From a virus: DNA of 43,920 nt. Positions 1-43,920 of the stretch are shown piece by piece (position 1 is the first letter of the stretch; every line of letters begins with the position of its first letter). A program made the translations under genes and the position numbers. The notes under the pieces are model-generated. The model was not told the origin of the DNA. It worked only from the letters and a program-made list of their open reading frames with translations, and did not search any database. The stretch lies in the IMG/VR virus record IMGVR_UViG_3300044636_000287, positions 1-43,920 of that record; one strand, given 5' to 3'.

Positions 1-1781
1 TCGACGATGCGCCGATGAGCGGCATTGCAACGAACCTTTTGCACTGGATTCGTGACTCTAAGATGCCGCAGGAGTTGCGTAAAGAAGCTGAACTTGGCGC
101 TCAGTACGCTTTGCAGTACGGTTGGAGCGCATTTTTCGTAGGCTGGCAGCAGAGTATTAGCAAGCGCACACAGGAGATCACCGCTGAAGAACTTTTCCAG
201 ATGGCTGCGCAGGCACAAGGGTCAGTCTTGGCTGAGTTGCCACAGATGATCCTCGACGCCCCCGACCAGGCTGCTGCGATCATTCAAGCTGCGATCCCTG
301 ACCTTGATGCTTCGGAAGCCAAGCGCATGGTCAACGAGATGGCTACGACTGGCCGTGCGACGTATGACCAAGAGTACGTCAGCCGCAATCTTCCCGAGAT
401 CGTTGCGCTTAAGCCTTGGGATGAGATCATCGTTCCACCAGAGACGGCTGACTTGCAGCGATCACGGGTCATTTACCGTAGGACATGGATGTCCGAGGTT
501 GAGTTGCGCGAGAAGATCACTACGGAAGGCTGGGATCCGGCATGGGTTGAGCGTGCGTTGCAACAGATCGGCAAGAGCAGCACGTTCTACAACATCAACC
601 TGCTGCCGACAACGACCATGTTGGTTTACAACGGCGTAAACTACATGAACATGGTGGAGGTTGTTTATGCTTACACGAAGAGTCTCGACGGAAAAGCTCC
701 CGCCATCTACTTCACCGTTTTTTGTCCGCAAGCCGCGTCCAATCGAAAAGAAGATGCAGCCTCGTGGGCTATCCATCAGCGACTTGATTACGCTCATGGC
801 GAATACCCGTTTGTGGAATTCCGTCGTGAACAGTTGCGCCGCGCTATTACTGATACTCGTGGTATACCCGAACTGGCTGTCACTGATCAAGACGAGATCA
901 AGGCGCAACACGATTCCATTCGGGATCACACTGCCTTCTCGACTCTACCTCCCATCAAGGTCGTTAAACGAATTGGTGCCATCAACAAGGTGGGCCCAGG
1001 AGTACAGCTCCCTGTCGTAAGTCCGACCGACTACAGCTTCATGGAGCCGCCGGCACGCGAGCCTACGGTGGCGTTTAACTTGATCAACCGCGTCGAGGCC
1101 AACCATGCTGCTTATTTTGGCACGATCAATCCAGTCGTGCCGCCAGCCAAGACCCAGATGCTCCAGCAGTTGCTGGTCAATAGCTGGTTGCTTAGCTGGC
1201 GCAGCATTTACCGGCAGATGTTTGCTCTGTGCTGCCAGTACATGAGTCCAGAGGAGATCATGCGCGTCACTGGCGGGCAACTGCCGCAGACCATGTCTGA
1301 GATACACAACGAGTTTGACCTTAACGTCCGCTTTGACGTGATGGACATGGACAAAGAGTACATCGCGCAGAAAATCGACTTCCTCACGAAGGTTGCTCAG
1401 TTGGACACTGGTGGTGTGTTAAACAGAACACGGCTGACCGAGATGATGATCCAAGCTATCGCGCCTGAGATGGCAAGCGAGCTTATCGTGAATCAACAAC
1501 AGGCCAGTGTGCAGATGTTCAAGGGTGTGCAGAGTGACATTGGCAACATGCTGCTCGGCAACGAGGCGCTCTACCAAGAGAACGATCCAGCCGCGCAGAC
1601 AAAGCTGCAATACGCGCAGCAGGTGATGCAATCCAACCCGAAAGCGCAGGCTGCTCTACAGCAGGATGAGAACTTCCGGGCGCTCTTTGAGAACTACGTT
1701 AAGAGCCTTCAGATGTCTGTTATGCAACAGCAAAACGCGCAAGTTGGCCGGATTGGTGTAACTCCTGTATCTCAACAATGA
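1..1781 (+). CDS. Portal protein, 5'-truncated by window edge (strain copy 1)
   Basis: C-terminal about 593 residues of the portal, the dodecameric ring at the capsid vertex through which DNA passes. The frame is open at the window edge: the complete 702-aa homologue near the right end continues upstream through the equivalent of this point, so the ATG at position 15 is only an internal Met (the other copy has Val there). The protein is long, as in P22-like and other podoviral portals, with a Gln-rich coiled tail. It ends SQQ and overlaps the next gene by four bases (ATGA). Differences from the second copy are mostly synonymous. The portal role is inferred from position between terminase and scaffold and from size; high confidence. 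Confidence 0.88.
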   Translation, partial: DDAPMSGIATNLLHWIRDSKMPQELRKEAELGAQYALQYGWSAFFVGWQQSISKRTQEITAEELFQMAAQAQGSVLAELPQMILDAPDQAAAIIQAAIPDLDASEAKRMVNEMATTGRATYDQEYVSRNLPEIVALKPWDEIIVPPETADLQRSRVIYRRTWMSEVELREKITTEGWDPAWVERALQQIGKSSTFYNINLLPTTTMLVYNGVNYMNMVEVVYAYTKSLDGKAPAIYFTVFCPQAASNRKEDAASWAIHQRLDYAHGEYPFVEFRREQLRRAITDTRGIPELAVTDQDEIKAQHDSIRDHTAFSTLPPIKVVKRIGAINKVGPGVQLPVVSPTDYSFMEPPAREPTVAFNLINRVEANHAAYFGTINPVVPPAKTQMLQQLLVNSWLLSWRSIYRQMFALCCQYMSPEEIMRVTGGQLPQTMSEIHNEFDLNVRFDVMDMDKEYIAQKIDFLTKVAQLDTGGVLNRTRLTEMMIQAIAPEMASELIVNQQQASVQMFKGVQSDIGNMLLGNEALYQENDPAAQTKLQYAQQVMQSNPKAQAALQQDENFRALFENYVKSLQMSVMQQQNAQVGRIGVTPVSQQ

Positions 1782-2029
1782 CGGAAAATCAAAAGGACGC
1801 CTTTGGCTTTTCAGGGAAGAACTCCGTTTGGAGCGAGGTGCTAAAAGTTATTGAGCAGTTACAGGAGCAACATTGGATGCTTGCTATAAGTAAAGACTGC
1901 AAAGGAGAAGATAGGATACATGCAGCAGGGCAGGCTGACGGAATTAATCTACTTTTGAGCACACTTATTGAATTAAGAAAACAAGCTAGAGAATTAAACG
2001 GCTTGACAACAAACGAAGATTTGGCATAA
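1778..2029 (+). CDS. Conserved 83-aa protein between portal and scaffold
   Basis: Small soluble protein with no membrane segment, starting MTENQKDAFGFSGKN. Its start overlaps the portal stop as ATGA, implying translational coupling. A second copy (42412-42663) has the same length with about ten substitutions, so it is under purifying selection and is a real gene. I do not recognise the family. Its place in the head-assembly block suggests a minor head or assembly role, but the sequence shows no motif that proves this. In the other strain copy a 161-aa gene separates it from the portal. Confidence 0.75.
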   Translation: MTENQKDAFGFSGKNSVWSEVLKVIEQLQEQHWMLAISKDCKGEDRIHAAGQADGINLLLSTLIELRKQARELNGLTTNEDLA

Positions 2030-2044
2030 CGCTAAAAGCGGGCT

Positions 2045-2061
2045 AACCAGCGTTACTGGTT
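2045..2061 (+). other. Hairpin upstream of scaffold gene, conserved in both copies
   Basis: Perfect 6-bp stem AACCAG / CTGGTT with loop CGTTA, in the spacer between the 83-aa gene and the scaffold gene. The second strain copy has the same stem and loop (42679-42695) although nearby spacer bases differ. It is followed by TTGATTA, not a strong T-tract, so it is either a weak terminator or attenuator or an mRNA-stability hairpin. Confidence 0.5.
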
Positions 2062-2091
2062 TGATTAAATAAGGACTTGCTACCTATTAGC

Positions 2092-3090
2092 ATGAACGAA
2101 ACACAATCACAGCCTGACGCCGGGAGTCAGGAGGCAGGCAGTACACCCGTTGCATCAAAACTCGGTTTGCTGGACCAGCAAAGTCTTAGTGACCTGCTCA
2201 AGTCTGGTTTCCTTGACGAGAAGGAGGCGACTCCCGCCAAACAGGAGCAGGCAGAACCTGAAGCAGAGACTGAAGAGCCAATTGTGGACTCGGAAGCTGA
2301 AGCACAGGTGGAAGCCGATCAGCCCATTGAAGAAGAAGCTGAAGCTGAAGAAAGTTCGTTAAGCAAAGGTGTCCAGAAGCGCATCAACAAGTTGGTTGCT
2401 GCGAAGAAGGCCGCTCAAGCTGAACTGGAAGCGCAAAAGTCACGTTTGTCTGAACTGCAAAAGGAACTGGAGACTGCGAAGTCCTCGGTGCCGGCAAGAC
2501 AGGTGGACGTATCTGATGTTGTCGAGCGTTTGTCTACACTTGAACAAGTAAAGGAAGAGCGCCAGAGAGCGTTGGATGTCATTTTGTGGTGCGAAGAGAA
2601 CCCGGATGGTGGAGTCATTACCCTGCCCGATGGCACGGATAGAGACCTTACCGACCAGGAAGTTCGCAGCATGAAGAGACTGGCGATTCGGCGCAAGGAA
2701 ATCGAGCTACCAGCCCGCGAAGAGTATCTGCAACAGCAGACCTACGTCGAGGGTGAAGTGGTGAAAGACTTTCCTTGGTGGAGCAAGCCAGAGACTGAGG
2801 AGTATCAAACTGCTCAACAGATTCTGCGTGAGTTTCCAGAGCTGAAGAAGCGCCGGGCAGATTGGAAACATGTAGCTGGATTATTAGTTATGGGAATCAA
2901 AGCCTACGGCGAAAAGAAAGCACAGAAGAAACCAACTGCACCGATCAAACGCGCCCCTGCTCAACCGTCGATTAAGGCGGCACCTGCAAGGACGACCCAG
3001 ACGGACCTTCAGAAGGCCAAGCAATCGTTCATTCGGAACAATTCAAGAGATGGGATGACTGACGTAATCAAAGCAATGGGACTTGTGTAA
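2092..3090 (+). CDS. Scaffold-like head assembly protein (copy 1)
   Basis: 332-aa protein just upstream of the major capsid gene. The N-terminal third is strongly acidic (runs of E and A), followed by a predicted coiled coil around residues 90-160 with alternating K, E, A and L, and a basic C-terminus (KRAPAQPSIKAAP). This charge layout and position are typical of phage scaffolding proteins, which template procapsid assembly and bind capsid subunits through a basic C-terminal end. I chose the ATG at 2092. An in-frame TTG fifteen bases earlier follows AAGGA too closely to be a good start. The second copy (42727-43725) has the same length. Function is inferred from position and composition. Confidence 0.72.
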   Translation: MNETQSQPDAGSQEAGSTPVASKLGLLDQQSLSDLLKSGFLDEKEATPAKQEQAEPEAETEEPIVDSEAEAQVEADQPIEEEAEAEESSLSKGVQKRINKLVAAKKAAQAELEAQKSRLSELQKELETAKSSVPARQVDVSDVVERLSTLEQVKEERQRALDVILWCEENPDGGVITLPDGTDRDLTDQEVRSMKRLAIRRKEIELPAREEYLQQQTYVEGEVVKDFPWWSKPETEEYQTAQQILREFPELKKRRADWKHVAGLLVMGIKAYGEKKAQKKPTAPIKRAPAQPSIKAAPARTTQTDLQKAKQSFIRNNSRDGMTDVIKAMGLV

Positions 3091-3124
3091 GTCCTTAACA
3101 ATCAAACGCAGTTTACTCTTACTT

Positions 3125-4180
3125 ATGGCTATTCTTACTGAACCCCAACTTAGCGGTCGCGGTCTACGCGAAGACTTGATGGACATGATTGCGCTCGTTG
3201 ACGCAAAGGACACTCCTTTTACGTCGATGGCTCGCAAAGGCAGCAAGCCCGGGAATATGTACTTCCGCTGGCAGTCTGACTCGCTTCCTACCCCTCAGGT
3301 AGGTGGTGTGGTTGACGGCACGGACGTTTCCACCTACGACAACTACGTCGTTGGCTACCGTGCTGAACTCGCGAACTACGCACAGGTGTTCCGCCGTGCA
3401 GTGCGCGTGTCCCGCCTCACTCAGGACATCGCTGATGTCGCAGGTGTGCGTGACGAACTGGCTGACAACGTCAGCAAGGGCATCACTGGCATCAAGCGTG
3501 ACATGGAAGCGACCTTCACGTCGAACCAGCTCTCGCAGCAGGACAACGGCACGACTCAGGCCTACCGCACCGCTGGTGTGCAGACCTGGATCAGCACCGC
3601 TGGTACTGGAACGCCAACTCCCGGAGACATCCCTTCGATCTTCCGTACTCCTTCGACCTCGATCCTCACTGGCGCATCCAGCGGGTTGACGGACGCAGGT
3701 GTGCAGGGGCTTCTGAAGTCGATCTTCGACCAGACTGGCCACTACACCAGCTTCGATGCCATCGTCGGAACTGACCTGAAGCGTGCTTTCACCGGCCTGC
3801 TCGGAACCACGGCTCTGACCACGGTCAGCAACTCCAGCAACACGCTTGCTGCCGGTGCTACCAAGGTGCAGACTTTCCAGCGTGACGCTGCGGCTGACAC
3901 CTTCATCCAGAGCTTGGACGTGTTCCAGGGTGACTTCGGAACGGTGCGTCTGCATCCTTCCACGTTCATCGGAACCGTGTCCGGCACGACCTGGACGCCA
4001 ACTCCTTACAAAGGTCTTGTGCTTGACATGAACCTCATCGAGGTTCGCTACGGCGGAAACGTCGCTAACGTCACTGCACTGCCAGATTACGGTGGTGGCC
4101 CTGCTCGCTTGATCGAAGCAGTTGCTGGCTTGGTTGTCGGCAACCCGCTCGGCCTCGGGAAATTCGACTACTCCTCCTAG
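3125..4180 (+). CDS. Major capsid protein (SU10/DUF5309-like), copy 1 complete
   Basis: 351-aa capsid subunit. The N-terminal region, with GLREDLMDMIALVDAKDTPF then FRWQSDSL, matches the pattern I associate with the SU10-type capsid family (DUF5309, HK97 fold): a RED-L-D-I start, a TPF-S step and a WQ-DSL strand. The start is ATG at 3125, preceded by a pyrimidine-rich leader (ACTCTTACTT) with no Shine-Dalgarno. The second copy keeps the same start with a similar leader. An upstream in-frame ATG at 3083 overlaps the scaffold end and is not conserved in character. The gene is followed by the triple hairpin RNA block. Confidence 0.88.
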   Translation: MAILTEPQLSGRGLREDLMDMIALVDAKDTPFTSMARKGSKPGNMYFRWQSDSLPTPQVGGVVDGTDVSTYDNYVVGYRAELANYAQVFRRAVRVSRLTQDIADVAGVRDELADNVSKGITGIKRDMEATFTSNQLSQQDNGTTQAYRTAGVQTWISTAGTGTPTPGDIPSIFRTPSTSILTGASSGLTDAGVQGLLKSIFDQTGHYTSFDAIVGTDLKRAFTGLLGTTALTTVSNSSNTLAAGATKVQTFQRDAAADTFIQSLDVFQGDFGTVRLHPSTFIGTVSGTTWTPTPYKGLVLDMNLIEVRYGGNVANVTALPDYGGGPARLIEAVAGLVVGNPLGLGKFDYSS

Positions 4181-23786: not shown

Positions 23787-24539
23787 ATGGCAAACATAAC
23801 ACGGAAGTGGAAACGCTTCCTTGCAGTTAGTTGCAGCCATGGGTTCATGGCGGACCAAGCTGTACTCAAGGAAGTCTTACGCTTTCGTGACCGATGGAAG
23901 CCGGACACGGTGCTGCATCTCGGTGATGCCATCGATATGACGTGTTTGCGTAGTGGTGCTATCACTGCTGATAGTCACGACGCTACGGTTGACCCGGAGG
24001 CTGACCTGAATGATGGCCTAGCATTTATCTCGGCGCTGAGACCACAACACTACCTGCTTGGCAATCACGAGGCTCGGCTTGTTACGCTGATGAGCCACCC
24101 TAAAGCAATCATCTCGGCTCTGGCGACTCGCGTCTATCACCAGATCCACGACCGAGCCAAGTCCATCAAGTGCAAGGTCTATGACTACAAGCTTAAGACC
24201 GGCTTCGTTGGCTTGGGTGACGCGCTCTTCCAGCACGGATACTTGCACAGCGAGAACGCCTTGCGTGATTCCGCCGAGCGTATGTGTCACGGTAAGTACA
24301 CTAAGCTTGTCATGGGGCATATCCATCGCGTACAAATCGCTGAAGGCAGACGCATTAAAGGGGTAACTGGCTACTCTGTTGGGTGGCTGGGAGATCCCGA
24401 AATGGCTGGCTACGCGGAAAATAGAATTGCAACCACCGCTTGGAGCAGAGGCTGGGCGTGGGGCGAATATACTGACAACGAGACAATTGTATGGCTGACA
24501 AAAGAACTAAAGGACGGAAGCTTCAAGCTGCCCCTGTAG
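23787..24539 (+). CDS. Calcineurin-like metallophosphoesterase with altered first motif
   Basis: 250-aa phosphoesterase fold. Motifs in order are SCSHG (residues 15-19), HLGDAID (44-50), LGNHEAR (91-97), FQHGYLH (148-154) and MGHIHR (176-181). They match the metal-binding set D-x-H, GD-x-x-D, GNHE, H, GH-x-H. The first Asp of D-x-H is replaced by Cys16, which may change metal preference or weaken one site. The substrate is unknown; phage enzymes of this fold act on nucleic acid ends or nucleotides. It lies at the border of virion and replication genes and overlaps the next gene by 49 bases. Confidence 0.85.
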   Translation: MANITRKWKRFLAVSCSHGFMADQAVLKEVLRFRDRWKPDTVLHLGDAIDMTCLRSGAITADSHDATVDPEADLNDGLAFISALRPQHYLLGNHEARLVTLMSHPKAIISALATRVYHQIHDRAKSIKCKVYDYKLKTGFVGLGDALFQHGYLHSENALRDSAERMCHGKYTKLVMGHIHRVQIAEGRRIKGVTGYSVGWLGDPEMAGYAENRIATTAWSRGWAWGEYTDNETIVWLTKELKDGSFKLPL

Positions 24540-24748
24540 AAGGGGACTGGCTCTCGCAACTTGCGCAGAACCTAGAGATTCAACCCGCACCTCCGGGGTG
24601 GTATACACTCTCACAAATTGCTCAACGGCTTGGAATTGGCAGAACCGCTACACGGAACATCCTTGCTCAAAAGAAAGCTGTACGACAGAAGTTTTACCAC
24701 AAAACGACTGACGGAAGAATCGTGCTTACAGTACACTACAAGATATGA
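24491..24748 (+). CDS. HTH DNA-binding protein, 85 aa
   Basis: A basic N-terminus (MADKRTKGRK) is followed near residues 36-70 by a helix-turn-helix pattern (GWYTLSQIAQRLGIGRTATRNILAQKK), where the second helix of A-x-x-L-G-I-x-x-x-T recognises DNA, and a C-terminal wing (FYHKTTDGRIVLTVHY). It is probably a transcriptional regulator of the early operon that begins just downstream. It overlaps the phosphoesterase gene by 49 bases in another frame and the next gene by ATGA. Target sites are unknown. Confidence 0.68.
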   Translation: MADKRTKGRKLQAAPVEGDWLSQLAQNLEIQPAPPGWYTLSQIAQRLGIGRTATRNILAQKKAVRQKFYHKTTDGRIVLTVHYKI

Positions 24749-25913: not shown

Positions 25914-26220
25914 AGGCTGCCGAGGCGAGCGCATGTGGCGCGATGAACTCCGGGCTGCTGGCTTTACCGCAAGACGGGGTCAGCAGTTCGCCGGAGGAAC
26001 GGACAGCCCAGATGTCATCTGCGAGGAGCTTGCAGCACTACACCAAGAGGTGAAGTTCGTCGAGAACCTCAATCTTATCAAGGCCACAGAGCAGGCCGAG
26101 CGCGATGGTGCTGGTAAGGCGTGGATTGTAGCACACAAAAAAAACAGAACCCCTTGGCTAGTGACGATGAGCAGCGAACTGTTTTTCAAGCTACTCAGGG
26201 ATGGGATGGAGGGTATTTAA
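25891..26220 (+). CDS. Holliday-junction-resolvase-like PD-(D/E)XK nuclease, 109 aa
   Basis: A small nuclease resembling archaeal Hjc-type resolvases. RAKGCRGERMWRDELRAAGF gives the first acidic residue (Glu). DSPDVICEELAALHQEVKFVEN supplies the Asp and the E-V-K catalytic core, and KAWIVAHKKNRTPWLV supplies the later strand. It would resolve branched DNA or nick replication intermediates before packaging. The start is placed at ATG 25891; an upstream in-frame ATG (25849) lies in the HTH gene and adds an unrelated leader. The nuclease fold is convincing; the exact substrate is inferred. Confidence 0.72.
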   Translation: MPINSRAKGCRGERMWRDELRAAGFTARRGQQFAGGTDSPDVICEELAALHQEVKFVENLNLIKATEQAERDGAGKAWIVAHKKNRTPWLVTMSSELFFKLLRDGMEGI

Positions 26221-26221
26221 C

Positions 26222-26482
26222 ATGATTGTTGACCTTGAACAATCAGAGCAATCGCTTGAGCTTTTAGAAAAAGCACTGGCCATGCTTGACGAAAGAGATC
26301 GAGTTATCCTAGTTGCCCGCTATGGGCTAGACGGCACAAAGCCCAAGACCTTGTTTGAGACTGGTGCTTTGATACGTCGAACTAGGGAGCGAGTTGCAAC
26401 TCTTCAGCAAAAAGCATTGCGCAGATTACGTTTGCAAATAAGCAATCTTAAAGGCTTTGCTTACGTTGAAGGCTGCGAGTAA
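26222..26482 (+). CDS. Sigma-70 region 4-only protein, 86 aa
   Basis: Residues 14-70 read like region 4 of a primary sigma factor: LEKALAMLDERDRVILVARYGLDG (region 4.1), TLFETG, then the HTH recognition helix RTRERVATLQQKALRRLR (region 4.2). The housekeeping pattern L-x-x-x-T/R-RERV-x-x-x-x-x-KALR-x-LR is clear. Regions 1, 2 and 3 are absent, so it cannot melt promoters alone. It may occupy the beta-flap of host RNA polymerase or -35 sites to redirect or inhibit transcription, or pair with a separate partner. The start is ATG 26222, just after the resolvase stop. No such partner is recognised in the window. Confidence 0.78.
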   Translation: MIVDLEQSEQSLELLEKALAMLDERDRVILVARYGLDGTKPKTLFETGALIRRTRERVATLQQKALRRLRLQISNLKGFAYVEGCE

Positions 26483-26529
26483 ACACTTCTGCACCAGGCA
26501 GGGGCGCGACTGCACAACGCGCACACTTT

Positions 26530-27168
26530 ATGAACATCAGCATTAATATAACATACACGTCAGGAACTAAGGTTGAGCTTATCGTCCCGCTGGAAGAGCC
26601 GGCACAGATCGTCAGCGAGCCAGAGTCGCAGCCAAAGAAACCCGGCAATTGGGTTGACGTAATGAAGCATTGTGATTCGTTGAGTGCGAGTCAAGGTAAG
26701 GCAACTGTCGCGCCAGATCCCATACAACCTGCGCAGGACTTGGCAGACGCGATGGCTGGCATCCCAGTGCTTACAGACGAGGAGCTAGAATTACTCAAGC
26801 CATCCGGCGGGCGATATATATCCGCCAATCAAATGGTCGATGAGCTTAAGCAAGACCCAGAGGTAGGCAGGACGATGAGCCTGTACGATATCACGTACAT
26901 CACTCAAGACGGTAAAGAGTACAAGGTGCCACCGGGACTGATGAAAGACTTCATCACGATCTACGGAGAAAAGACCGTCGAGCAAGAGTTATGGAAGGCC
27001 CACGCTTGGCTCGAAGCTGATCCCCAGCGTCGCAAGACGCCACGCGGCATGGGGCGCTTCCTTAACGGTTGGCTATCCCGTGCATCGTCAATGGTGCGGA
27101 CGCCGATCAAAACCTTACTCAAGCGCGATAGTTTGATGTCTACCAATGGAACACAAGAAAGCTGGTAG
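26530..27168 (+). CDS. Helicase-loader / replisome-organiser-like protein, 212 aa
   Basis: The N-terminal part is variable and Pro-rich (1-90). The middle holds ISANQMVDELKQD and a helical region. The C-terminal signature is LWKAHAWLEADPQRRKTPRGMGRFLNGWLSRA (split here as a long helix ending in FLNGWLSRA), a motif I recall at the end of many phage replication proteins next to DnaB-type helicases. Position directly before the helicase, with a 23-base overlap, supports a loader or initiator role. No AAA+ motifs are seen, so it is not a DnaC-type ATPase. Confidence 0.58.
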   Translation: MNISINITYTSGTKVELIVPLEEPAQIVSEPESQPKKPGNWVDVMKHCDSLSASQGKATVAPDPIQPAQDLADAMAGIPVLTDEELELLKPSGGRYISANQMVDELKQDPEVGRTMSLYDITYITQDGKEYKVPPGLMKDFITIYGEKTVEQELWKAHAWLEADPQRRKTPRGMGRFLNGWLSRASSMVRTPIKTLLKRDSLMSTNGTQESW

Positions 27169-27853
27169 GCGCAGGCCGGTGGAGCTACCACCCGACACGG
27201 TGGTGCCAACTGCGCTAGAGGCCGAGCGCGGTATAGCGTCGATTGCGCTGAATCATCCTGAGGTGTTCTTGCACCACATCTCGGAGAAAAACTTCAAGGT
27301 GAGCGACATCTTTGACCCGCTCAGTCACCGGGTATGCGAGATCATCCTCCAGCAGCAGTCTCGCAACGCTTCATCCGAGATCCGCGTGATCTTCGAGAAG
27401 TGTCGCGAGACGCTACCAGCGACCGAGTTCCACCAACTCAGCGACCTCTACACGCTCATGCCCATCGCTGGTGCCATCGGCGACCTCGTAGACATAGTCA
27501 AGAATACAGCCAAGCGCCGCACCTTGCAGCATGTCGCCTACGAGACGCTTATGGCTATTAGCGACGCCACCGTGCAGACGCCTGAGCTTCTGAGCGACGT
27601 CGTGATGAAGGTCGAGGGGTTAAGTCGTGAACTTGCTCCGCCAAAGGTGATGGACACTAAGGCGCTCCTGCTCAATGCACTGACACGCTATGAGACAGGT
27701 GACGACGAGTCCATGCGGATAAAGACTGGTTATTCTGCTATCGACAACATCTGTCCGATACGCTTTGGTGACTTTGTAGTCATCGGCGGCGAAACAAAAA
27801 GCGGCAAGACGATGCTTGCACTCAACATTATTGCAAATCTAATAAATGAATAA
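27146..27853 (+). CDS. DnaB-type helicase, N-terminal half with Walker A only
   Basis: 235 residues containing the DnaB N-terminal domain (ALEAERGIASIALNHPEVF at 26-44; helical to about 125), the linker, and the start of the RecA-like domain (TGYSAIDNICPIRFGDFVVIGG) with Walker A GETKSGKT at 215-222. It stops at NIIANLINE, exactly where a normal DnaB continues into the strand carrying the catalytic Glu. The remaining ATPase motifs are encoded by a separate gene 2 kb downstream (29856). It overlaps the next gene via AATGAATAA. No intein motif is visible. Activity would require non-covalent assembly of the two chains. Confidence 0.88.
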   Translation: MEHKKAGRRRPVELPPDTVVPTALEAERGIASIALNHPEVFLHHISEKNFKVSDIFDPLSHRVCEIILQQQSRNASSEIRVIFEKCRETLPATEFHQLSDLYTLMPIAGAIGDLVDIVKNTAKRRTLQHVAYETLMAISDATVQTPELLSDVVMKVEGLSRELAPPKVMDTKALLLNALTRYETGDDESMRIKTGYSAIDNICPIRFGDFVVIGGETKSGKTMLALNIIANLINE

Positions 27854-28944: not shown

Positions 28945-29183
28945 GCGACTGGGTACTCATCCGGCGCACTAACGTGCTGCAAAACGTCTCGCTGCCGCGT
29001 CCTAAGAAGACGCAGGACATCGTCTGTGTCGGCCCGAAAGACGCGCTTGGTTCGAAGATGGAGGCGCTTATGCTTCTGCCGGAGAATCAATCGACGGACC
29101 TCATCGAGGTGAAGTATCTGCTTGAGCCGTACACGGGTCAGCATAGTCACACGTCTGCAAGGCCAGGTAATGGAACGCGCTAA
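28941..29183 (+). CDS. Small protein of unknown function, 80 aa
   Basis: 80-aa basic protein (MSDWVLIRRTNVLQNVSLPRPKK) with a hydrophobic middle strand (LMLLPENQSTDLIEVKYLLEP). It overlaps the nuclease stop by ATGA and runs 14 bases into the Mom-like gene. I do not recognise the family. It lies inside the block separating the two helicase halves and may be expressed with the nuclease. Confidence 0.55.
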   Translation: MSDWVLIRRTNVLQNVSLPRPKKTQDIVCVGPKDALGSKMEALMLLPENQSTDLIEVKYLLEPYTGQHSHTSARPGNGTR

Positions 29184-29859
29184 TGTGGATATTATTGTCA
29201 CTGAAATATCTCAAGCAGAGGCGGAGCCTTGGCTTTTAAATAGACATTATGCAAAGCGGCTTTGTCCGATAACATATGCCTTTGGAGCTTGGGATAAGGA
29301 GCACTTAGTTGGAGTGGTTACGTATGGGACTCCAGTTTCTTCAACTTTAAAAACTGGAATTTGCGGAGAACTTTGGGCTGGTTTTGTTTTAGAGTTAAAT
29401 CGTTTATGTTGCGAAAGCACTCCAAATTTGGCGTCAATTTTAGTTTCTAGATCACTTAAAGCTCTTCCCAAACCTTCAATTGTTGTTTCGTATGCAGATA
29501 GTAAACAAGGGCACGTTGGATATGTTTATCAAGCAACCAATTTTATTTATACAGGACTGTCTGCTGCCTTCAAAGATCCAATGGTTAAGGGGTATGAACA
29601 TAAACATCACACTTCGATTGGGGATGAGGCAAGGGGACACAAGTCAAGGGTTGGATTTTTAAGAGAAAAATATGGACATGAAAATGTGTATTTTATTGAA
29701 AGAAGTAGGAAACATCGTTACGTGCAGTTTTGTGGCACTGCAAAGCAAAAGATTGCAATGCGAAAAGATTTAAAGTACGACGTCTTTCCATATCCAAAAG
29801 GGAAAAGTAAACGGTATGATGCATCGGCAAAAATCGACACGCAGATGCGCTTATTATGA
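29170..29859 (+). CDS. Mom-like DNA adenine modification protein, 229 aa
   Basis: GNAT-fold protein of the phage Mu Mom type. Motifs are WLLNRHYAKRLC (21-32), an LELNRLC strand (74-80) and the hallmark SYAD...GHVGYVYQATNFIYTG (107-129). Mu Mom converts adenine to a carbamoylmethylated form that blocks restriction, so anti-restriction is the likely role here. Codon use differs sharply from the flanking genes (many TTT, TTA, AAA and AGA codons, AT-rich), suggesting recent transfer. It ends ATGA, overlapping the helicase C-half. It sits inside the helicase gene split. Confidence 0.82.
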   Translation: MERANVDIIVTEISQAEAEPWLLNRHYAKRLCPITYAFGAWDKEHLVGVVTYGTPVSSTLKTGICGELWAGFVLELNRLCCESTPNLASILVSRSLKALPKPSIVVSYADSKQGHVGYVYQATNFIYTGLSAAFKDPMVKGYEHKHHTSIGDEARGHKSRVGFLREKYGHENVYFIERSRKHRYVQFCGTAKQKIAMRKDLKYDVFPYPKGKSKRYDASAKIDTQMRLL

Positions 29860-30440
29860 ACAAAGGAATACTCGTCATCTCGCTGGAGATGCCAGCTAAC
29901 CAGATCATCGACCGTCTCGTAGCTCGGCTAGGCAATGTCAGCCTGCGTGCGCTCGCTGAAGGAGCTAAGCATGAGCGTGACATCAGGGGCGTCCACAGTG
30001 CCATCCAGAAGCTCAATAACAGCCGTCTGGTGGTGCGGGACGACCTGTACGACATAGCGAACATATGTGCCACTGCACGGGCTATGGCGAAGTCGCCGGA
30101 CGGACTCGGCGTGCTGTTCGTGGACTACATCCAGCTCGTACGCTGCGACCTAGGCAAGGACAGCAGCCGTGAGCGTGAAGTGGCCGAGGTGAGCCGAAGT
30201 CTGCGACTACTTGGCATCGAATTAGGTTGCTTAGTCATCTCGATTACGCAATTAAATGAACAGGGTAAAGCTCGCGAAAGTCGCGCAATCGGGCAAGACG
30301 CTACAGCCGTGATGGTTGTGAAGCTGTCCGATGACGCAGAGTTCCGTGAGGTTGGCATACCCATCCAGCGAAACGGCCCGTGCGGCGTCAGTGCAAATCT
30401 GCGCTTTACAGGCAAAACCGCTACGTTCCATAATGAATAA
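29856..30440 (+). CDS. DnaB-type helicase, C-terminal half with Walker B and arginine finger
   Basis: 194 residues completing the RecA-like domain missing from the gene at 27146. It has catalytic SLEM (Glu11), Walker B VLFVDYIQLV (86-95), sensor ISITQLN (128-134) and arginine finger QRNGPCG (Arg172). It begins MNKGILVISLEM, directly continuing the NIIANLINE end of the other half, and lacks Walker A. It overlaps the upstream Mom-like gene by ATGA and the next gene by AATGAATAA, so it is cotranslated. The two chains must associate to form an active P-loop site. Confidence 0.88.
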   Translation: MNKGILVISLEMPANQIIDRLVARLGNVSLRALAEGAKHERDIRGVHSAIQKLNNSRLVVRDDLYDIANICATARAMAKSPDGLGVLFVDYIQLVRCDLGKDSSREREVAEVSRSLRLLGIELGCLVISITQLNEQGKARESRAIGQDATAVMVVKLSDDAEFREVGIPIQRNGPCGVSANLRFTGKTATFHNE

Positions 30441-36676: not shown

Positions 36677-36816
36677 CGTCTGGCAAGACATCCCGGCTTG
36701 CGTGTCTCTCCTTCACAGGGGCGCACACTAGCCACACTAAGTTTGTTACGCTATACTGCGCTGCAACAACACCTCCCACGCCTCTCTGCGATGCGCACCA
36801 AGGGAGGTTTCTTTTT
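36677..36816 (+). ncRNA. Candidate small RNA between promoter and terminator
   Basis: The 140 bases between the rightward promoter and the intrinsic terminator contain no protein-like frame but several possible stems: CCCCT (36671) with AGGGG about 45 bases later, enclosing CAAG/CTTG and GACA/TGTC pairings. The transcript may be a regulatory RNA or an attenuated leader of the right-arm operon. It is inferred from promoter-terminator spacing only. Confidence 0.4.
36771..36816 (+). terminator. Intrinsic terminator or attenuator (rightward)
   Basis: ACCTCCC (36771-36777) pairs with GGGAGGT (36802-36808). An inner TGCG-ATG-CGCA hairpin lies in the loop, and TTCTTTTT follows. This is a rho-independent terminator, but its location before the right-arm genes suggests attenuation rather than operon end. 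Confidence 0.65.
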
Positions 36817-39816: not shown

Positions 39817-41925
39817 ATGATCTCACCAGTTGACCCTTTAGCTATTGCTTCTGATACGCCTGACATCGGCGAGCTATTGAGCGAGTACAATCGCTCAATG
39901 ATTAACTCGTCGCAGGGTAATCTGGTCACGAAGTTTGATAACATCCGCTTTGCTCGGTGGGCAGGACAGACTGATGACGGGAAAAAGCATAGTGATTCCC
40001 GTCCAGAAGGCAGCCCGGCTTGGCCGTTTGAAGGTGCAAGCGACGTTCGTAACCGCCTCATCGACTCATCTTGCAACGAGCTTTCCGCTCTGCTTGTTAC
40101 GGCCTTCCAGCGTGCAACCATCCGGGCGTCTGGCGTAACCCTCGACGACGCGCCGGTTAGCGGCATTGCGACGAACCTTTTGCACTGGATTCGCGACTCT
40201 AAGATGCCGCAGGAGCTTCGTAAAGAGGCTGAACTTGGGGCGCAGTACGCTTTGCAGTACGGCTGGAGCGCGTTCTTTGTAGGCTGGCAACAGAACATCA
40301 GTAAGCGTACACAGGAGATTACCGCTGAAGAACTTTTCCAGATGGCTGCGCAGGCACAGGGATCTGTGTTGGCCGAGCTGCCACAGATGATCTTGGACGC
40401 TCCAGATCAAGCTGCTGCGATACTTCAAGCTGCAATACCTGACTTGGACGCTTCGGAAGCCAAGCGTATGGTTAACGAGATGGCTACGACTGGCCGTGCG
40501 ACGTATGACCAAGAGTATGTTAGCCGCAATCTTCCTGAGATCGTTGCGCTCAAGCCCTGGGACGAAATCATCGTTCCGCCAGAAACGGCTGACTTGCAGC
40601 GATCACGGGTCATCTACCGTAGGACATGGATGTCCGAGGTTGAGTTGCGCGAGAAGATCACCACAGAAGGCTGGGACCCAGACTGGGTTGAGCGTGCGCT
40701 TCAGCAGATCGGCAAGAGCAGCACCTTCTACAACATCAACCTGCTCCCAACAACAACCATGTTGGTTTACAACGGCGTAAACTACATGAACATGGTGGAG
40801 GTTGTTTATGCTTACACGAAAAGCCTCGACGGAAAAGCTCCCGCCATCTACTTCACCGTTTTTTGTCCGCAAGCTGCGTCCAATCGAAAAGAAGATGCAG
40901 CCTCGTGGGCTATCCATCAGCGACTTGATTACGCTCACGGCGAATACCCGTTTGTTGAATTCCGTCGTGAACAGTTGCGCCGCGCTATTACTGATACTCG
41001 TGGTATACCCGAGTTGGCTAGCACTGATCAAGACGAAGTCAAGGCCCAGCACGATTCGATCCGGGATCATACTGCCTTCTCGACTTTACCTCCCATCAAA
41101 GTCGTCAAACGAATTGGTGCCATCAACAAGGTGGGCCCAGGAGTACAGTTGCCTGTCGTAAGCCCAACGGACTACAGCTTCATGGAGCCGCCTGCGCGTG
41201 AACCCACGGTGGCGTTTAAGCTCATTGAGCGTGTGGAAGCCAATCACGCTGCGTACTTCGGTACAATTAATGCGTTTGTGCCACCGGCCAAGACGCAGAT
41301 GTTGCAGCAGTTGCTCGTCAATAGCTGGCTGCTTAGCTGGCGTAACATCTACCGGCAGATGTTTGCGTTGTGCTGCCAGTACATGAGCCCGGAAGAGATC
41401 CTGCGCGTCACCGGCGGACAATTGCCACAGAGCTTGTCCGAAATACACAACGAGTTCGACCTTAACGTCCGCTTTGACGTGATGGACATGGACAAGGAGT
41501 ACATTGCGCAGAAGATCGACTTCCTTACCAAGGTTGCGCAGCTCGACACGGGCGGCGTGCTTAACAGGACGCGCCTTACCGAGATGATGATCCAGGCCAT
41601 CGCGCCTGAAATGGCAAGCGAGCTTATCGTCAACCAACAGCAGGCCAGCGTGCAAATGTTCAAGGACGTGCAAAGTGACATCGGCATGATGCTCCTTGGC
41701 AACGAGGCGTTGTACCAAGAGAACGACCCAGCTGCACAGACTAAACTGCAATACGCGCAGCAGGTGCTGCAGTCTAACCCAAAAGCGCAGGCTGCGTTGC
41801 AGCAAGATGAGAATTTCAAGGCGCTGTTTGAGAACTACGTTAAGAGCCTGCAAATGTCAGTTATGCAGCAGCAAAACGCGCAGATTGGCCGGATTGGCGT
41901 AACTCCAGTATCTCAACAACAGTAG
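39817..41925 (+). CDS. Portal protein, complete, 702 aa (strain copy 2)
   Basis: Full-length portal directly after TerL. The region from residue about 109 onward corresponds to the truncated copy at the left edge, without internal length change apart from one extra Gln at the end (SQQQ versus SQQ). The Gln-rich helical C-terminus (residues about 610-702) fits a portal barrel or crown as in P22-size portals. Substitutions between copies are conservative and mostly synonymous, showing two real strains. Just beyond its stop is a 161-aa gene absent in copy 1. Confidence 0.88.
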   Translation: MISPVDPLAIASDTPDIGELLSEYNRSMINSSQGNLVTKFDNIRFARWAGQTDDGKKHSDSRPEGSPAWPFEGASDVRNRLIDSSCNELSALLVTAFQRATIRASGVTLDDAPVSGIATNLLHWIRDSKMPQELRKEAELGAQYALQYGWSAFFVGWQQNISKRTQEITAEELFQMAAQAQGSVLAELPQMILDAPDQAAAILQAAIPDLDASEAKRMVNEMATTGRATYDQEYVSRNLPEIVALKPWDEIIVPPETADLQRSRVIYRRTWMSEVELREKITTEGWDPDWVERALQQIGKSSTFYNINLLPTTTMLVYNGVNYMNMVEVVYAYTKSLDGKAPAIYFTVFCPQAASNRKEDAASWAIHQRLDYAHGEYPFVEFRREQLRRAITDTRGIPELASTDQDEVKAQHDSIRDHTAFSTLPPIKVVKRIGAINKVGPGVQLPVVSPTDYSFMEPPAREPTVAFKLIERVEANHAAYFGTINAFVPPAKTQMLQQLLVNSWLLSWRNIYRQMFALCCQYMSPEEILRVTGGQLPQSLSEIHNEFDLNVRFDVMDMDKEYIAQKIDFLTKVAQLDTGGVLNRTRLTEMMIQAIAPEMASELIVNQQQASVQMFKDVQSDIGMMLLGNEALYQENDPAAQTKLQYAQQVLQSNPKAQAALQQDENFKALFENYVKSLQMSVMQQQNAQIGRIGVTPVSQQQ

Positions 41926-42412
41926 TTGTATGCCTGAGTTGAACTACAATTTTAATCCTCCAAAGAACTTTGATACGCCTCTTTCAAAAAAAGAGGAAAA
42001 ACAATATCAGTCGTACAAGAAGGCACTTAAAGATAGGGGCAATGAAATAGACTATGATCTTCGTGGATACTGGAAGGAAGAAGGTAGGTTTATCCCCGTT
42101 AAAAGCGCATTAGATGAAAGTCATTTTACAGACAAGTGGAAAAAGCCAAATCATCCCGGATTCAGCAACGAGTCCGTGTATCACAATTCGATAAACAAGG
42201 ATGGAACTGTAAATATTGGAGGCCAATGGCTTGTTGGCCCAGATGGAAGGGACACTTATGTTCCTCCAGCAAAAAGATACATGGATCCACAAGAGAGAAT
42301 GCTTATTGATTACTACTTAACAAGAGATGCAGATCCTGCTGTTGGCGCAGGAAGGATGTTGAATCCCGCGCTTCTTGAATACTACAAGTCAATAGTGCCA
42401 CAACCTCAACAA
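41910..42412. repeat. CTCAACAA direct repeats flanking a 490-base indel
   Basis: The portal ends GTATCTCAACAA and the 161-aa gene ends CCTCAACAATGACGG. In the left-end copy these two sites are fused as GTATCTCAACAATGACGG. The eight-base repeat therefore brackets exactly the segment present in one strain and absent in the other. Confidence 0.8.
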
Positions 42413-42415
42413 TGA
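41930..42415 (+). CDS. Conserved phage YDLRG/KPNHP-domain protein, 161 aa (only in copy 2)
   Basis: Contains YDLRGYWKEEG, then DKWKKPNHPGFSNESVYH, the hallmark of a small domain I recall in many phage structural regions, sometimes fused to larger virion proteins; its role is unknown. A helical C-terminus (MLIDYYLTRDADPAVGAG) follows. The gene is absent from the left-end copy. CTCAACAA occurs at its 3' end and at the portal end, so it could be lost or gained by recombination between these direct repeats. It overlaps the 83-aa gene by ATGA. Confidence 0.75.
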   Translation: MPELNYNFNPPKNFDTPLSKKEEKQYQSYKKALKDRGNEIDYDLRGYWKEEGRFIPVKSALDESHFTDKWKKPNHPGFSNESVYHNSINKDGTVNIGGQWLVGPDGRDTYVPPAKRYMDPQERMLIDYYLTRDADPAVGAGRMLNPALLEYYKSIVPQPQQ

Positions 42416-42663
42416 CGGAAAATCAAAAGGATGCCTTTGGCTTTTCAGGGAAGAATAATACCTGGAGCGAAGTGCTTAAAGTTATCGAGCAGTTGCAAGA
42501 ACAGCACTGGATGATGGCTATAAGTAAAGACTGCAAGGGAGAAGATAGAATACATTCAGCAGGTCAAGCTGATGGGATTAATCTTACTTTGAGCACGCTT
42601 ATTGAATTAAGAAAGCAAGCAAGACAATTAAATGGCTTGACTAATAACGAAGATTTGGCATAA
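42412..42663 (+). CDS. Conserved 83-aa protein (copy 2)
   Basis: Homologue of the gene at 1778 with the same length and about ten residue changes (for example NNTW for NSVW, MMAIS for MLAIS). Here it follows the 161-aa gene, again by ATGA overlap. The same start-coupling sequence AACAATGACGG is preserved in both strains, despite different upstream genes. Its function is unknown. Confidence 0.75.
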   Translation: MTENQKDAFGFSGKNNTWSEVLKVIEQLQEQHWMMAISKDCKGEDRIHSAGQADGINLTLSTLIELRKQARQLNGLTNNEDLA

Positions 42664-42678
42664 CGCCACTAACGGGCT

Positions 42679-42695
42679 AACCAGCGTTACTGGTT
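42679..42695 (+). other. Hairpin upstream of scaffold gene (copy 2)
   Basis: Same stem and loop as at 2045-2061 (AACCAG-CGTTA-CTGGTT), retained although flanking spacer bases differ between strains. This supports functional constraint on the hairpin. Confidence 0.5.
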
Positions 42696-42726
42696 TGATT
42701 ATATAAAGGACTTGCTACCTATTAGC

Positions 42727-43725
42727 ATGAACGAAACACAATCACAGCCTGACGCCGGGAGTCAGGAGGCAGGAACGACACCCGTTGCACAAAAACTCGG
42801 TTTGCTGGATCAGCAAAGTCTTAGTGACTTGCTTAAATCTGGTTTCCTTGACGAGAAGGAGGCAGCTCCGGCCACACAGGAGAAGGCGGAACCTGAAGTT
42901 GAAGCTGAGGAGCCAATTGTGGACTCGGAAGCTGAACCTGAGGTTGAAGCCGATCAGCCCATTGAAGAAGAAGCTGAAGCTGAAGAAAGTTCGTTAAGCA
43001 AGGGCGTACAGAAGCGTATCAACAAATTAGTTGCTGCGAAGAAGGCCGCTCAAGCTGAACTGGAAGCGCAAAAGTCGCGTTTATCTGAACTGCAAAGGGA
43101 ACTAGAAACTGCAAAGTCTTCGGCCCCAGCAAAGCAGGTGGACGTATCCGATGCAGTCGAACGCTTGTCCACCATCGAACAGGTGAAGGAAGAGCGCCAG
43201 AGAGCGTTGGATGTCATTTTGTGGTGCGAAGAGAACCCAGATGGAGGAGTAATTACCCTGCCGGATGGAACTGAGAAGGATTTAACCGATCAGGAAGTTC
43301 GCAGCATGAAACGATTGGCAATTCGGCGCAAGGAAATCGAGCTGCCAGCCCGCGAAGAGTACCTGCAACAGCAGACGTACGTCGAGGGTGAAGTAGTAAA
43401 AGACTTTCCTTGGTGGAGCAAGCCAGAGACTGAGGAGTATCAAACTGCTCAACAGATTCTGCGTGAGTTCCCAGAGCTAAAGAAGCGCAGAGCAGATTGG
43501 AAACATGTTGCTGGATTATTAGTTATGGGCATCAAAGCCTACGGCGAAAAGAAAGCACAGAAGAAACCAACTGCACCGATCAGACGCGCCCCTGCACAGC
43601 CGTCTATTAAAGCGGCACCGGCAAGGACGACCCAGACGGACCTTCAGAAAGCCAAGCAATCGTTCATTCGGAACAATTCAAGAGATGGGATGACTGACGT
43701 GATTAAAGCAATGGGACTTGTGTAA
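42727..43725 (+). CDS. Scaffold-like head assembly protein (copy 2)
   Basis: 332 residues with the same acidic N-terminus, coiled coil and basic C-terminus as the copy at 2092. Differences cluster in the acidic N-terminal third (for example VEAEEPIVDSEAEPEVEAD), while the C-terminal 120 residues are almost unchanged, as expected if the capsid-binding end is constrained. The start ATG corresponds to that of copy 1. Confidence 0.72.
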   Translation: MNETQSQPDAGSQEAGTTPVAQKLGLLDQQSLSDLLKSGFLDEKEAAPATQEKAEPEVEAEEPIVDSEAEPEVEADQPIEEEAEAEESSLSKGVQKRINKLVAAKKAAQAELEAQKSRLSELQRELETAKSSAPAKQVDVSDAVERLSTIEQVKEERQRALDVILWCEENPDGGVITLPDGTEKDLTDQEVRSMKRLAIRRKEIELPAREEYLQQQTYVEGEVVKDFPWWSKPETEEYQTAQQILREFPELKKRRADWKHVAGLLVMGIKAYGEKKAQKKPTAPIRRAPAQPSIKAAPARTTQTDLQKAKQSFIRNNSRDGMTDVIKAMGLV

Positions 43726-43760
43726 GTCCTTAACAATCAAACTTAGTTTTACTCTTATTT

Positions 43761-43920
43761 ATGGCTATTCTTACTGAACCCCAACTTAGCGGTCGCGGTC
43801 TACGCGAAGATCTGATGGACATGATTGCGCTCGTTGACGCAAAGGACACTCCTTTTACGTCGATGGCTCGCAAAGGCAGCAAGCCCGGGAATATGTACTT
43901 CCGCTGGCAGTCTGACTCGC
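43761..43920 (+). CDS. Major capsid protein, 3'-truncated by window edge (copy 2)
   Basis: First 53 codons of the SU10/DUF5309-like capsid protein, identical in protein sequence to the start of the complete copy at 3125, with only about two base changes visible in 160. The leader (ACTCTTATTT) again lacks a Shine-Dalgarno. The gene runs off the window. Confidence 0.85.
   Translation, partial: MAILTEPQLSGRGLREDLMDMIALVDAKDTPFTSMARKGSKPGNMYFRWQSDS

Follow-up and report, generated by a model that had tools for sequence, protein, structure and literature searches.

The locus described here raises the question of what a phage does with one region of a sigma factor detached from all the others. The window, meaning the whole stretch of DNA that was analysed, comprises 43,920 nucleotides (positions 1 to 43,920 of IMG/VR record IMGVR_UViG_3300044636_000287), and the gene in question, here called SIG, lies at 26222..26482 on the plus strand and encodes a stand-alone protein of 86 aa. 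Its frame contained no internal stop, and the motifs RYGLDG, RTRERV and KALRRLR were all found in the translation. A longer reading from an ATG at 26201 is available; the start at 26222 was preferred because it is preceded by a good putative Shine–Dalgarno sequence, GGAGGG, read directly from the letters at 26208..26213 (+) in the 3′ end of a RusA-like gene, and because the same start codon is found in relatives.

The first-pass annotation had described the protein as almost entirely sigma-70 region 4, and this was borne out by sequence and by predicted fold. The Pfam Sigma70_r4 profile (PF04545, model positions 1–49) matched residues 18–70, encoded by 26273..26431 (+), with an E-value of 4.3e-9 and a score of 36.2 bits (curated cut-off 24.1). 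SIG also matched PHROG 351 (sigma factor, E 5e-11), and the closest solved structure in a PDB sequence search was 1tty, RpoD (E 4.5e-10). An AlphaFold2 model built from an alignment of 20 rows had a mean pLDDT (predicted local distance difference test) of 87.8 and contained four helices, with helical spans given as 24–34, 44–50 and 55–84. When the model was submitted to Foldseek, the top matches among the best 50 of 355 were primary sigma factors, including sigma factors within initiation complexes and sigma domain 4 on its own, and matches to sigma domain 4 had a probability of 1.00. With a profile score over the cut-off and the region 4 fold, SIG belongs to the Pfam family Sigma70_r4 and is essentially one sigma-70 region 4.

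To read its surfaces, SIG was mapped on Escherichia coli RpoD using the position lists of PMC4943231 (this and the other papers cited by PMC number were available in part and are cited to that extent). All six listed core-binding positions were kept, three as identical residues (R562, G577 and L598) and three as conservative changes (E555D, F563Y and I565L). At the −35 positions 11 of 16 were kept, the differing ones being D570P, Y571K, E574F, R588A and Q589T. P and K are also found in other sigma factors in the loop that holds D570P and Y571K; E574F, R588A and Q589T are real departures. R588 and Q589 were invariant in 79 of the 79 bacterial sigma regions read (80 in all, one of which the pattern missed), and R584, E585, K593 and R596 are retained in SIG. 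Excerpts of PMC2613000 link R584 to position −31, and E585 and R588 to −33. Docking of SIG on the polymerase flap is plausible because the published sigma-70 core-contact positions are kept; judged from these residues, polymerase contact looks preserved and −35 recognition appears relaxed or changed.

The SIG gene is accessory, an optional cassette in a cargo slot between the RusA-like gene and the gene before DnaB. The slot was surveyed in 76 contigs that reach both flanks, 75 of which were found via DnaB without use of SIG. Contigs L002–L005 had been retrieved with SIG as the query, and L004 was not found by DnaB and thus stands outside the count of 75. The census omitted L006, L007 and L040, which duplicate the contigs L002, L005 and L003, respectively, as well as another five loci from the L002–L085 set that do not extend to both flanks. 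SIG was carried by four of the 76 contigs (L002, L003, L004 and L005), or by 3/75 of those found via DnaB. Ten contigs had a near-empty slot of 51–53 bp, and elsewhere the slot held HNH-type genes, genes of 104, 83, 69, 51 or 47 aa, mixtures of such genes, or sequence that was not classified. Identity to the window copy was 92–100% across the four distinct SIG copies, and contigs with the same flanks and a near-identical DnaB N-part exist without SIG. When the records of 23 relatives were searched with PF04545, 18 had at least one match at E ≤ 1, and a match over the cut-off was seen in just one, the known carrier. The sub-threshold matches that were checked by coordinates, part of those in the 18 records, fell in an 85-aa helix–turn–helix (HTH) protein, in the N-terminal HTH of an HNH protein and in a terminase-small-subunit-like protein, none of them sigma.

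These counts bear on the earlier proposal that SIG redirects host polymerase to phage promoters. Promoter-like sites between 23.5 and 38.2 kb numbered seven, against 10.8 expected from shuffled sequences, and so gave no excess. In the sequence preceding the terminase gene, the non-carriers L091 and L116 were 97% identical to the window, and the carriers L136 and L112 were 95% and 92% identical; ahead of the early block the figures were 99% for the non-carrier L021, and 87% and 72% for the carriers L003 and L004. There was thus no sign of carrier-specific promoters in the early-block or terminase upstream regions, and since identity there was as high in non-carriers, promoter sequence does not track the presence of SIG. 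SIG is missing from nearly all close relatives and is therefore not needed for the late programme that they share. An obligatory late-gene switch was accordingly rejected, since near-identical relatives have neither SIG nor another region 4 that scores above the cut-off, and the idea that the late genes of this phage depend on SIG is corrected. What stands of the redirection proposal is a lone region 4 with its published core contacts kept, for which flap docking is plausible; a general role at phage promoters or in late expression does not stand, with carriers at 3/75.

We favour, at about even confidence, the reading that SIG serves host takeover as an accessory modulator of transcription, similar to sigma region 4, that docks on polymerase and whose −35 recognition is relaxed or altered. 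The protein would be made early, together with the replication genes, and would dock on the beta flap of host polymerase, where it would replace or compete with sigma region 4. Having lost R588 and Q589 but retained R584 and E585, it would contact DNA around −35 with a specificity that is relaxed or changed. On balance, host −35-dependent transcription would be dampened or re-weighted, and phage promoters less reliant on a −35 box would be relatively favoured, so that SIG would act as a host-takeover moron and not as an obligatory late switch of the phage. Counted for this reading was a second variable slot near SIG with a Mom-like modification gene, the usual company of counter-host cargo. 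Several points weigh against it: with R588 and Q589 lost, DNA binding may be weak or absent; region 4 alone may be a poor competitor, full-length sigma having many other core contacts; the constraint test described below is based on just four near-identical copies; and docking, DNA binding and expression are all predictions. A bolder version, which we consider unlikely, is that a solo sigma region 4 is traded among the phages of this group as cargo and would block the flap or sequester proteins that bind region 4, serving for takeover or against other phages as a weapon made from a host sigma domain whose recognition helix has been deliberately disarmed at R588 and Q589. Should SIG indeed dock on the flap, nature would have supplied a minimal experiment on the ability of an isolated region 4 to reprogramme bacterial polymerase, and one of the rare instances where near-identical phages with and without such a gene can be compared directly.

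Among the alternatives, the one ranked next after the takeover modulator is that SIG is a self-contained HTH DNA-binding regulator, acting by operator binding or promoter blocking, for which polymerase contact is no longer relevant; we regard this as possible though rather doubtful. The HTH scaffold and R584, E585, K593 and R596 are kept, the recognition-helix changes are as would be expected for a new specificity, and region 4 alone is able to bind promoters according to the available part of PMC2613000. Region 4 is also reused in phage regulators, as follows from a 235-aa protein of another virus contig (L181:363-1070) in which an XRE-like HTH is joined to sigma region 4. A pure DNA binder, however, would have no need of the core-contact positions that are also kept, and no repeated operator-like site shared by carriers and confined to them was found, the search for such sites having gone no further than two analyses, one of them the comparison of upstream regions. 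Third in the ranking, and improbable in our judgement, is that SIG is what remains, without function, of a sigma gene once captured, and is a neutral passenger in a small-insert hot-spot. Its rarity (3/75), a G+C content of 0.452 against 0.542 and 0.524 in the neighbours, and the fact that only four distinct copies are known speak for such an origin, but frame and Shine–Dalgarno sequence are intact in all copies and the non-synonymous changes are terminal except for K40R. Within residues 10–73 of the four distinct copies, one codon varied non-synonymously and five synonymously (one-sided Fisher p = 0.004, small numbers), K40R being the only non-synonymous change there and the others clustering in the termini; over the whole gene the counts were eight and eight (p = 0.017). 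Few as these data are, the codons look constrained, which argues for a working protein.

That SIG is an anti-sigma decoy, which soaks up a protein of the host or of a competing phage aimed at region 4 and so shields the polymerase for its own phage, is ranked fourth and held to be quite improbable. The region 4 surface is kept without any other part of sigma, the gene is optional cargo in a slot of exchangeable genes, and T4 AsiA binds region 4 directly (excerpts of PMC2988021). No anti-sigma protein is known in the host or in its phages, and SIG has Y at F563, a change (F563Y) that weakens AsiA binding in E. coli according to the same excerpts; the latter point is tempered by the occurrence of Y at 563 in bacterial sigma factors too. 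Last comes the view that SIG forms a two-subunit sigma, in the manner of SigO–RsoA or T4 gp55–gp33, together with a region 2 partner that the host encodes or that has diverged beyond detection, and this we think very improbable. Two-part sigma systems do exist, as described in the accessible parts of PMC10141391 and PMC7892883. In the present record, however, no match to Sigma70_r2 or Sigma70_r3 at E ≤ 1 was found anywhere, with controls positive in 11/14 and 14/14 genomes, and the gene neighbourhood is the same in relatives without SIG. SIG thus departs from the sigma-70 family proper, where region 2 lies in the same protein or in a partner, and the first-pass statement that no region 2 partner was evident proved correct. 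The sole other PF04545 signal in the window was a sub-threshold HTH of 16 bits at 24602–24667, which belongs to the HTH protein (85 aa) at 24491. The phage likely has no RNA polymerase of its own: a PF00940 polymerase search gave no match, although its controls were equally silent, and a 1514-aa protein was without a PHROG match.

Comparison with known systems places SIG as a further case of solo region 4 phage proteins that are already annotated and uncharacterised. Stand-alone region 4 proteins of 70–140 aa annotated in phages were returned by the fold search; dedicated work on them or a tested function was not found in the open-licence papers that were searched. Three proteins of uncultured Caudovirales (UniProt A0A6J5LKM7, 94 aa; A0A6J5LJJ3, 95 aa; A0A6J5LB75, 82 aa) are likewise small and mostly region 4, but share just 16–36% identity with SIG where they align, and a 127-aa protein in another virus contig (L179) is similarly built. 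In an annotated phage collection no relative went beyond 57% coverage and 45% identity. Region 4 of the primary sigma factors (RpoD/SigA) shares domain, fold and core-contact positions with SIG, the closest bacterial ones being 46–52% identical over region 4, whereas SIG is without regions 1–3 and carries R588A, Q589T and E574F on its DNA-facing part. The closest bacterial sigma region 4s overall (41–52% identical) came from several phyla, in a genome scan whose patterns derived from an alignment that included three sigma segments and which therefore favours such sequences; no donor of the domain emerged. The host was not found via terminase relatives either, the best named one being Phage C75C1 (31%), for which no host is stated.

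The T4 late co-activator gp33, likewise small and phage-encoded, has been proposed to act as a clamp on the beta flap where region 4 would otherwise sit, which is the action proposed for SIG. It acts with gp55 and the sliding clamp, neither of which was seen in the SIG phage, and it is structurally unrelated to sigma region 4 as stated in the available part of PMC7892883; SIG is a region 4 to which gp33 is not homologous, and the gp33 structure 3TBI was absent from the best 50 of 355 Foldseek matches. Bacillus subtilis SigO–RsoA resembles SIG in that sigma regions lie on separate proteins (PMC10141391, in part), but its region 2 partner is encoded alongside, whereas no Sigma70_r2 was found in the SIG record. 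The sporulation-like phage sigma factors described in excerpts of PMC9429907 are encoded by non-essential, sigma-like phage genes that alter host expression, as is proposed for SIG; they occur in phages that infect spore-formers and are homologous to the sporulation sigma factors of the host, whereas SIG is a single domain.

Among the genes of the record are those for portal, major head, DNA transfer and replication proteins. Its ends overlap (1–3284 and 40142–43920) at 89–91% identity, so the genome is probably near-complete, circularly permuted and about 40 kb long; given this level of identity and a 161-aa gene at 41930–42415 that is present only in the right-hand copy, the assembly probably joins two strains. 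Around SIG the order, all on the plus strand, is RusA-like gene, SIG, a gene of unknown function, DnaB N-part, exonuclease VIII-like gene, Mom-like gene and DnaB C-part, and the earlier placing of SIG in a replication operon is a fair one. The slot begins after the RusA-like Holliday junction resolvase gene at 25933..26220 (+; PHROG 244, E 2.8e-10) and ends at a hairpin-like leader of the next gene at 26487..26529 (+), which comparison of relatives found kept in full and empty slots. This 43-nt leader is conserved and folds as two hairpins, with one pair altered on both sides (C–G to U–A) in 4 of 16 sequences. It precedes the gene at 26530..27168 (+) for the 212-aa protein of unknown function, which has no Pfam or PHROG match and is conserved in position.

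The DnaB-like helicase is encoded in two genes. The N-terminal half, identified by its PHROG match and by relatives, lies at 27146..27853 (+) and ends just beyond Walker A, the break falling right after that motif, and the C-terminal half lies at 29856–30440; on PHROG 19 the parts cover positions 154–377 and 381–580. The exonuclease VIII-like and Mom-like genes lie between them. The break showed no intein-like ends, and the split is retained in relatives of just 56–60% identity (L075–L085). The Mom-like DNA modification gene at 29122–29859 (PHROG 1384, E 1.3e-51) occupies the second variable slot, in which a full copy was found in 7/67 contigs and elsewhere often a short N-terminal stub only.

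Further elements were observed away from SIG. An abiF RNA (RF03085) was detected at 36772–36808 (+) with 43.2 bits (cut-off 37), in a part of the window that has no clear genes, and in two of six further loci searched (L086:6142-6178 and L147:6302-6338); the element in the window also resembles a terminator hairpin. No Abi_2 protein was found in the records bearing it, though the Abi_2 controls were weak. The window terminase is without an intein-like insert, and the terminase genes of three relatives (L142:10001-12130, L165:10001-12127 and L150:10001-12595) carry one in frame at the P-loop, with the layout GGNR, CLAGET...HHN, SGKTE. At L136:8768-11443 and L158:1432-4089 some 0.9 kb separates the two terminase halves, an arrangement that a split intein might produce.
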